A program made the position numbers and the translations under genes. From contig NZ_NHMP01000001.1 of the NCBI RefSeq assembly GCF_002221595.1, positions 62,001 to 126,000 on the forward strand: a stretch of 64,000 nucleotides of DNA, given 5' to 3'. Origin of the DNA: Turicimonas muris (GTDB lineage Bacteria > Pseudomonadota > Gammaproteobacteria > Burkholderiales > Burkholderiaceae_F). The notes beneath the pieces were generated by a model. It saw only the letters and a list, made by a program, of their open reading frames with translations, was not told where the DNA came from and did not search any database. Below are positions 62,355 to 63,848 of this stretch, in pieces; position 1 is the stretch's first letter, and every line of letters starts with the position of its first letter.

Positions 62355-62375
62355 GCCCCAAAGTTTTATTGGGGC
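62355..62375. terminator. Hairpin at the end of the second Rz1 gene
   Basis: GCCCCAA (62355-62361) pairs with TTGGGGC (62369-62375) around a 7-base loop that contains the Rz1 stop codon. A T-rich tail is present on the plus strand; on the minus strand the T-rich part begins only after 6 bases. Confidence 0.5.
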
Positions 62376-62593
62376 TTTTGTCTACCGGTGATTCTCTGCG
62401 CAGAATTTAACTGATCTTGCAAGTCTTTCCGCAAGCTCTTGAGTTTCGATTCTGCCTCGGAGACATCTATTAAGCCCTCGATTGGCGTTAGCTCCGGACA
62501 TTCTCTCAATGTTTGCGAGTTGCTGGCGCATCCGGTCAAGCTCAGTACGGCGAGCAGACTCATCAATGCGTAGTTGAGCCAGAGCAATTGCAT
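62366..62593 (-). CDS. Rz1-like outer-membrane spanin lipoprotein (second copy)
   Basis: A 75-residue lipoprotein encoded in another frame largely inside the second Rz gene. The frame is open further upstream, but ATG 62593 gives a proper signal: MQLLWLNYALMSLLAVLSLTGC with lipobox LTGC. The mature part is short and Pro/Leu-containing (ECPELTPIEGLIDVSEAES). With the Rz partner it would fuse the inner and outer membranes at the end of lysis. It has exactly the length of the first Rz1. Confidence 0.75.
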   Translation of the reverse strand: MQLLWLNYALMSLLAVLSLTGCASNSQTLRECPELTPIEGLIDVSEAESKLKSLRKDLQDQLNSAQRITGRQKPQ

Positions 62594-62768
62594 CGCTTTT
62601 TTGCTTGGCTTTGAACTCTTGAACAACGCTCTGGAGCGTTGCGATTTGAGAACGGGCATTCTTCAGTTCCTCGGTTTCTTTTGCTTGATAGTAGCCAGCA
62701 GAATAAGCTGTAACGAGCGAAACAATACCGCCGGCTACAACCATAAATATTTTTAATTTCGTGAGCAT
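62382..62768 (-). CDS. Rz-like inner-membrane spanin (second copy)
   Basis: A 128-residue i-spanin with an N-terminal signal-anchor near 8-26 (FMVVAGGIVSLVTAYSAGY) and a long helical periplasmic part beginning ETEELKNARSQIATLQ. The same block EELKNARSQ occurs in the first Rz, so the two are paralogues. The start overlaps the end of the NrdD-like gene by 16 bases. The Rz1 partner is nested in its 3' half. Confidence 0.78.
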   Translation of the reverse strand: MLTKLKIFMVVAGGIVSLVTAYSAGYYQAKETEELKNARSQIATLQSVVQEFKAKQKSDAIALAQLRIDESARRTELDRMRQQLANIERMSGANANRGLNRCLRGRIETQELAERLARSVKFCAENHR

Positions 62769-62932
62769 GGACAGGCTTTTTCTTCAGTGAAATATTTTCT
62801 GTCTGCAAATTCTCCCTTCTTTCCAATATTGAAACTATCAATCGGACGGTGGTAACCCATAACACGAGTCCAGACTTCGCATTTAGTTCTTTCTGAATTT
62901 TTAATATCGTAAGTTTGTAAGTCTTTATCCAT
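62753..62932 (-). CDS. Stand-alone NrdD C-terminal (glycyl radical) domain-like protein
   Basis: A 59-residue protein from ATG 62932, with AAGGAG 9 bases upstream; the frame is open earlier but this start is clear. The core RVMGYHRP (R23-P30), then FNIGKKGEFADRKYF, matches the C-terminal glycyl-radical segment of anaerobic ribonucleotide reductase NrdD (RVxGY, N-x-GK-x-x-E, x-x-R). Gly26 would be the radical glycine. Cysteines at 18, 54 and 56 could bind a metal. The catalytic barrel is absent. Short proteins of this kind are often annotated as NrdD in phages. It starts one base after the first Rz1 stop and overlaps the second Rz. Confidence 0.7.
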   Translation of the reverse strand: MDKDLQTYDIKNSERTKCEVWTRVMGYHRPIDSFNIGKKGEFADRKYFTEEKACPCSRN

Positions 62933-62933
62933 T

Positions 62934-63161
62934 TTATTTATCTCCTTGGAAATTCTCATTGAAGTGCTTTTCGGCAATACTCAATAATTCCTCTTGCCTC
63001 AAGAAGTAACTTTCTACTCTCTGATTCCAATCGGAAACATTGAATTGCGATTCGAGATTCGGAGGTTTTGGCTCGTTTTTCAAGACTATTGACTCGTTGG
63101 CGCAACCGCTCAGAGTCAGAACGAGCAATAGACTCAGACTTACGAAGATCAGCCATGGCAA
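62934..63161 (-). CDS. Rz1-like outer-membrane spanin lipoprotein (first copy)
   Basis: A 75-residue lipoprotein nested out of frame in the first Rz gene and extending 22 bases past it. No ATG lies before the signal, so TTG 63161 is chosen: it gives MPWLIFVSLSLLLVLTLSGC with lipobox LSGC. The mature part contains EPKPPNLESQFNV. The stop is one base before the NrdD-like start codon, so translation is probably coupled. Confidence 0.72.
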   Translation of the reverse strand: MPWLIFVSLSLLLVLTLSGCANESIVLKNEPKPPNLESQFNVSDWNQRVESYFLRQEELLSIAEKHFNENFQGDK

Positions 63162-63336
63162 TATTCCAGTCTTTTTGTCTTGTTTCGTACTCTTGTATTG
63201 TTTGTGTAAGTTGCGATACTTGCGAGCGAGCATTTTTTAACTCTTCCGAATTTTTACCTTGATTCAAACCCAAAAAATAAGCGCAGAGAACTAATAAAAT
63301 TCCTGCGCTTGCTTTAACTAAAGATAAGATATTCAC
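62956..63336 (-). CDS. Rz-like inner-membrane spanin (first copy)
   Basis: A 126-residue i-spanin. The signal-anchor lies near 7-24 (VKASAGILLVLCAYFLGL) and a long charged helical region follows (NSEELKNARSQVSQLTQTIQEYETRQ), ending with a Cys-containing segment. The start codon overlaps the end of the lysozyme gene by 4 bases. Gene order lysozyme-Rz-Rz1 is the classic lambdoid-type lysis order. Confidence 0.8.
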   Translation of the reverse strand: MNILSLVKASAGILLVLCAYFLGLNQGKNSEELKNARSQVSQLTQTIQEYETRQKDWNIAMADLRKSESIARSDSERLRQRVNSLEKRAKTSESRIAIQCFRLESESRKLLLEARGIIEYCRKALQ

Positions 63337-63848
63337 ATTAAGGCAACCTCCGCTTTTCTTCTATTCATTAAGCCGTTAACAACTTCATACATAATGCGCC
63401 TGTGCTCGTCTCTCAGAATATTTCCATTCTTATCTTTCATTTTTTGTTTTGCGAAAGATAAAAATCCTTTTTTTGCTTCTTCAATCTTTCCGGCATTAAG
63501 CAGTTCTAATGTTTTAGATTTTGCAACCGCACCAACACCGACATTAAAAGCCAAATCCAGTAAAGCTATGTATTGACCCTCTGTTAACTTGCAAGTTACG
63601 TATTTAGATAACGCCTCGGCGTGCTCAGTCAAATCATCTTTTAAATATTTATCGGCTTGTTGTTTAGTGATTGTTTGACCCGGTTTTACGTTCTTTGTAT
63701 GTCCATAACCAATGGTTAAAGTATTAGCAGAGCATTTATAAGCCTTAAGCCTTAATCCTTCCCACTCTTTAACAAAATTTTCCGCAACTAACGGGTTCCA
63801 TTGCGAAAAAGGTAATTTTTCTTCTTGGTTACTTGTTGAATGATTCAT
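63333..63848 (-). CDS. Phage lysozyme (T4-type, glycoside hydrolase family 24)
   Basis: A 171-residue endolysin that cleaves peptidoglycan glycan chains. The catalytic motif fits E-8aa-C-5aa-T: E29 region EGLRLKAYKCSANTLT, with cysteine in the place taken by aspartate in T4 lysozyme. TIGYGHTKNV follows, and LLDLAFNVGVGAV near 95 is typical. There is no signal or membrane anchor at the N-terminus (MNHSTSNQEEKLPF), so release should need a holin, which is not seen in this window. Confidence 0.9.
   Translation of the reverse strand: MNHSTSNQEEKLPFSQWNPLVAENFVKEWEGLRLKAYKCSANTLTIGYGHTKNVKPGQTITKQQADKYLKDDLTEHAEALSKYVTCKLTEGQYIALLDLAFNVGVGAVAKSKTLELLNAGKIEEAKKGFLSFAKQKMKDKNGNILRDEHRRIMYEVVNGLMNRRKAEVALM

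Follow-up and report, generated by a model that had tools for sequence, protein, structure and literature searches.

The stretch of DNA analyzed here (the window; 64,000 nucleotides of a Turicimonas muris contig) carries, between two pairs of phage spanin genes, a gene for a 59-amino acid stand-alone glycyl-radical protein. The locus thereby raises the question of what a phage could gain from encoding the radical loop of an anaerobic ribonucleotide reductase (RNR) without the rest of the enzyme. The class III RNR of the host is split and has a small glycyl-radical subunit of its own, and we consider it likely that the phage gene is a second copy of this subunit; its activation, docking and part in the upkeep of the dNTP supply are what we infer from sequence comparison.

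The gene occupies positions 62753-62932, where a sequence-only reading of the window had correctly placed it, and lies on the minus strand, which that reading had left unstated. The translation of 62932-62753 includes EVWTRVMGYHRP and FNIGKKGEFADR. Its ATG (62932-62930) lies 8 nt from a Shine-Dalgarno sequence, AAGGAGA (62941-62947, minus strand), which falls within the final part of the Rz1-like ORF upstream, and because of this Shine-Dalgarno the ATG is favored over a TTG that would open a longer frame of 74 amino acids. The Pfam profile NRDD (PF13597) matches the protein with 32.2 bits (E 6.3e-8), exceeding the curated cut-off of 26.2 bits, at profile positions 532-562 of 562 only. This C-terminal match and a glycine within an RVxGY loop identify an NrdD-type radical domain without the catalytic barrel, as had been proposed. 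Four NCBIfam NrdD-type models likewise match at their C-terminal ends (best E 9.5e-7), all far under the full-length cut-offs of those models, and PHROG 4132, a family of unknown function, matches with an E value of 7.5e-8. NRDD was the only Pfam match; PF01228, the pyruvate formate-lyase (PFL)-type Gly_radical family, gave none up to E 10, and no PF01228 protein was found in the host genome. Membership of the GrcA/PFL group is thus ruled out, and the lack of a PF01228 protein in the host also speaks against PFL as the partner of the phage protein.

A search of solved structures with the 59-residue protein alone matched nothing. A one-piece relative from Sanguibacter aligns with the Thermotoga maritima NrdD structure to its end (EVWTRVMGYHRPVSSFN over EYMRIVGYLVPVSAFN). 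As described for the T. maritima enzyme, the last barrel strand is followed by a zinc ribbon and then by the C-terminal loop, which bears Gly621 and dips into the barrel (PMC4493059). The alignment predicts that Gly26 of the window protein (in RVMGY; codon at 62855-62857, minus strand) takes the position of the radical glycine and that the chain break falls between the zinc ribbon and the radical loop. AlphaFold left the radical loop unplaced both in the small protein (mean pLDDT 67) and in a one-piece relative, L170 (mean pLDDT 80, loop below 50).

In the genome of the window, NRDD is found in three places, namely a barrel (profile positions 2-529), a separate ORF just downstream of it (531-562) and the window gene, which sits in a prophage on a different contig from the barrel/NrdG locus. 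The host locus opens with a 692-amino acid ORF (677 from the second ATG) that contains the ATP-cone and barrel and ends soon past the zinc-ribbon motif; there follow a stop, a 57-amino acid radical-motif ORF in another frame, and NrdG. The class III RNR of this host is naturally split into an ATP-cone/barrel protein, a 57-amino acid radical protein and NrdG. Over residues 9-58 the window protein shares 80% identity with the host 57-amino acid protein (E 4.2e-24), and by this similarity it is a second copy of the host's small radical subunit. It is encoded by a separate ORF in a cell that also holds NrdG and a barrel lacking the radical domain, but does not itself adjoin the barrel and NrdG, as the host's own 57-amino acid gene does. 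The sequence-only reading had envisaged a GrcA-like repair of host NrdD, of which one part stands, in that the host anaerobic RNR is the likely partner, whereas the other does not, since host NrdD is not a one-piece enzyme and its radical domain is separately encoded. It follows from this separate encoding that the phage gene would supply one more copy of a regular subunit, whose replacement would not depend on a cleaved enzyme. Class Ia NrdA and NrdB are also present in the host, so that dNTPs need not rely on class III, a point that counts against our preferred explanation.

A sample of the family yielded NRDD matches in 43 of 67 genomes, with a separate radical match in 40 of these 43; two small radical genes were counted from the listing in 12 of the 67. 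In the phylum draw, NRDD matched in 47 of 299 genomes. A separate radical gene was present in 12 of the 299, in each case alongside an NRDD match ending short of the radical domain, and in none of the 33 one-piece genomes or the 252 genomes without NRDD, an association that is not a set of independent trials because the genomes are relatives. The remaining matches comprised G247, in which the match runs through stops and reads as barrel, stop and radical ORF, and one weak partial match. Frameshifting or sequencing error as the source of the split is ruled out on several grounds. A stop lies between barrel and radical ORF in all five of the 12 whose DNA was read (the host's own, G187, G228, G324 and G307), and the 10 loci compared that include a barrel end have both an intervening stop and different frames; in G012 and G307 the two ORFs share a frame, yet a stop separates them. 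The radical gene may also be distant from the barrel, as in G324 (about 9.5 kb away) and in G045, G048 and G035, where NrdG directly follows the barrel and the sole radical gene found is elsewhere and must therefore act in trans. At the G307 locus (L213, 1-2500) the NrdD is of a different type, with the loop RRITGYLVG, and its radical loop is also a separate ORF after a stop; this difference in the loop suggests more than one origin for the split.

Among named genome contigs, at least 562 relatives of the window protein were confirmed. The best 80 of these included 68 with the barrel as a separate ORF on the locus, four one-piece proteins, five with NrdG and no barrel detected on the locus, and three with neither. 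The five barrel-less loci with NrdG are alphaproteobacterial (L124, L132, L136, L146 and L155; four titled Holosporaceae and one Alphaproteobacteria), and in them the small gene lies beside NrdG. Within the family, one genus (L194, L195, L198, L199 and L203) has a second, unlinked small gene that stands among chromosomal genes, near ORFs that by eye resemble an M20-type peptidase and a transporter, with no evident prophage. The one-piece NrdD of an alphaproteobacterial MAG (L145, 3-1679) ends in two tandem radical loops.

In this host and in many other bacteria, NrdD is divided just past the zinc ribbon, which stays on the large chain together with the ATP-cone and the barrel, whereas the radical loop alone is left to a peptide of some 60 residues. 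The small subunit is probably held non-covalently, in which case phage and host copies could exchange. Host NrdG would place the radical on Gly26 of the phage protein, the loop of which would dip into the host barrel like the C-terminus in one-piece NrdD, and while the phage grows its copy would raise or refresh that half of the enzyme which is oxygen-fragile, allowing dNTP synthesis to continue. Oxygen is described as cleaving class III RNR at the radical (PMC3019208), and a detachable radical part would for that reason amount to a cheap fuse, of which the phage would supply extras. In its broadest form, to which we give slightly less than an even chance, this idea holds that many bacteria possess a throw-away 60-residue radical subunit that spares an 80-kDa enzyme, and that phages carry only the fuse. 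A narrower form of the preferred explanation, that the phage protein matters only once oxygen has cleaved the host small subunit, is a tentative one that we regard as possible but doubtful. The same oxygen cleavage is in its favor, YfiD and the T4 protein Y06I are reported to act in this way on PFL (PMC8683613), and a small subunit that stands alone is easily swapped; against this, sequence cannot separate damage repair from dosage, and the family genomes with two small genes already hold a second copy.

The surroundings of the gene bear on when it would be expressed. The minus-strand order is lysozyme, spanin pair A, the radical gene and spanin pair B. The phage lysozyme, or endolysin (63333-63848; E 1.5e-36), is followed by an Rz-like inner-membrane spanin (62956-63336; best PHROG Rz-like spanin E 4.3e-5) with a nested Rz1-like lipoprotein (62934-63233), which matched no PHROG at E 0.01 and is for that reason named from its nested position and a lipobox-like stretch only. 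Downstream lie a second Rz-like inner-membrane spanin (62382-62768; best PHROG Rz-like spanin E 6.2e-4) and its nested Rz1-like lipoprotein (62366-62659; E 0.007). As the sequence-only reading had noted, the gene is placed between the spanins and coupled on both sides: the stop of the pair A Rz1-like ORF (62936-62934) sits 1 nt before its ATG, and its 3' end shares 16 nt with the pair B Rz ORF, whose ATG is at 62768. The prophage extends past the window, further proteins scanned there including a baseplate J-like protein, a major capsid protein (at cut-off), an integrase (window-equivalent 95560-96849), one DUF3383 protein and two without a match. Pairs A and B (62366-63336) are paralogous, pair A resembling the spanins of the G050 and Succinivibrio prophages and pair B the G001 phage spanin, and the cassette looks as if it were recombinant.

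A late position in a lysis cassette fits dNTP supply poorly, and no promoter above chance accounts for earlier expression (the region holds four promoter-like sites, and shuffled sequence gives an expectation of 3.6), which again weighs against the preferred explanation. Late expression would suit a decoy that binds up the barrel or NrdG of the host so that less dNTP is made there, perhaps to the advantage of a phage that uses DNA breakdown products, and the 20% of residues 9-58 that differ from the host copy could be read in the same way. The phage protein, however, keeps the glycine as well as the RVMGY, RP, N, GK, E and R positions and is under purifying selection, and a decoy would have no need of a radical glycine; we regard this alternative as very unlikely. 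A lysis position also occurs in a few related prophages, the order being lysozyme, small gene and B-like spanin in the same-genus genome G001, lysozyme, A-like spanin, one other gene and small gene in G050, and lysozyme, A-like spanin, small gene and integrase in a Succinivibrio MAG (L107). As a general rule for phage copies this position is ruled out by the varied neighbors of the viral copies, which, among the families listed, include portal, terminase, tape measure, head-tail, integrase and endolysin proteins with few members each.

A scan of viral contigs with the window protein confirmed 68 loci, with small-gene frames mostly of 50 to 150 amino acids and a few longer; a barrel lay within the fetched flank of only one (L076). 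After 12 near-duplicates were dropped, 56 viral records were searched whole. All 56 hold the small gene and 55 show no barrel, the exception being the record of L076, with a barrel and a separate small gene; since many records are fragments, a missing barrel is a statement about the records. Among the viral records, hosts are assigned for the Sutterellaceae-type prophages only. In a wider viral scan 377 stretches were confirmed, and 80 of them were retained. The window gene is thus a host-type metabolic gene carried in phage genomes and a candidate auxiliary metabolic gene. No NRDD barrel was found in the genome of the Succinivibrio MAG, which counts against the rule unless that genome is incomplete or mis-binned. 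Among 50,697 isolate phage records, tblastn gave three matches: ANMV-1, one within an 810-amino acid open frame and one within a 1,758-nt annotated class III RNR gene, the latter two of which look one-piece. With ANMV-1 as query, only ANMV-1 itself and one of these two were matched. Several viral copies (L024, L033, L036, L055, L058, L066 and L075) have a Cys-rich N-terminal extension, and in L055 the NRDD match starts at profile position 513, near the zinc ribbon.

Conservation among these copies has to be read with the search in mind. EVWTRVMG served as the scan seed, and its invariance is therefore circular in the first viral scan and in the named-genome scan. Eight of the 80 kept viral stretches lack the WTRVMGY seed and were found through a downstream pattern. 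All eight keep the glycine, so that the check set beforehand, conservation of this residue in homologues, came out in favor of the sequence-only reading. The window copy has a dN/dS of 0.06 against the G001 phage copy and 0.19 against the G050 copy (36 aligned codons), silent sites being saturated or nearly so in five of the seven window-copy comparisons listed, and over 59 distinct viral sequences mean pN was 0.24 and mean pS 0.88 (0.30 and 0.90 once the seed octapeptide is removed), with values of up to 0.69 in single pairs. These substitution patterns indicate that the window copy is under purifying selection, at most an indirect sign that it may improve phage growth. They bear on the alternative that it is a captured host gene hitchhiking with no present use to the phage, an idea consistent with the widely differing neighbors among viral records and with a copy (L070) cut by a stop at codon 30. 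The low dN/dS of the window copy, the 377 confirmed viral stretches, the same cassette neighbors in prophages of several species and a coupled start with a good Shine-Dalgarno all argue against it, and we consider hitchhiking unlikely. A sequence similar to that of L070 stays open in L043 (record G378), and G378 contains one further match, a weak one in which two TGA codons occur.

If the preferred reading of a phage-borne second subunit is true, the gene would illustrate how an enzyme killed by oxygen can be repaired cheaply, and would be among the smallest genes through which a phage could influence dNTP supply; if the fuse reading holds as well, one tiny phage gene would sustain anaerobic dNTP supply in the host, as a glycyl-radical spare part whose enzyme is not PFL. 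A natural two-chain class III enzyme, present also in the laboratory strain Cupriavidus necator H16, and viral versions of its detachable chain make the idea readily testable. Public annotation can name a 60-residue peptide 'nrdD', by which both the split and the phage copies are hidden. In the accessible text of the open-access literature, no description was found of a class III RNR with a separate radical gene, or of phage copies of such a gene.

Several known systems share part of this arrangement. GrcA/YfiD of E. coli and Y06I of phage T4 are, like the window protein, small stand-alone glycyl-radical proteins that serve a larger radical enzyme, and Y06I is also phage-borne; theirs, however, is a PFL-type domain that rescues a one-piece PFL, whereas the window protein matches only NRDD and has a partner that lacks the domain by design. 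One account names these two, both for PFL, as the only validated glycyl-radical spare parts, those for other radical enzymes being possible but not validated (PMC8683613). In the nrdD/nrdG operon of C. necator H16 plasmid pHG1 the order is similarly split, with a 676-amino acid barrel, a 66-amino acid protein named nrdD and NrdG, but unlike the window copy this system is a cellular one, complete in itself and carried by a plasmid. The original paper on that operon is reportedly that of Siedow in 1999. NrdDG is described as essential for complete denitrification in this strain (PMC2864759). The ANMV-1 virus 'nrdD' (KP703175), a name that stands in a figure legend (PMC4372165), is likewise a virus-borne radical domain without a barrel; the protein has 144 amino acids and differs from the window protein in a radical loop of another NrdD type, a Cys-rich N-terminal part and its origin in an archaeal virus. 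The split class II RNR NrdJa/NrdJb is also an RNR in two chains (PMC9669993), but it has no glycyl radical and is cut elsewhere. Introns or endonucleases likewise leave some phage nrdD genes in several coding pieces (PMC3653736; PMC12363816); in those phages, however, the barrel and the rest are present and the gene is interrupted, whereas the window phage holds the radical loop only.
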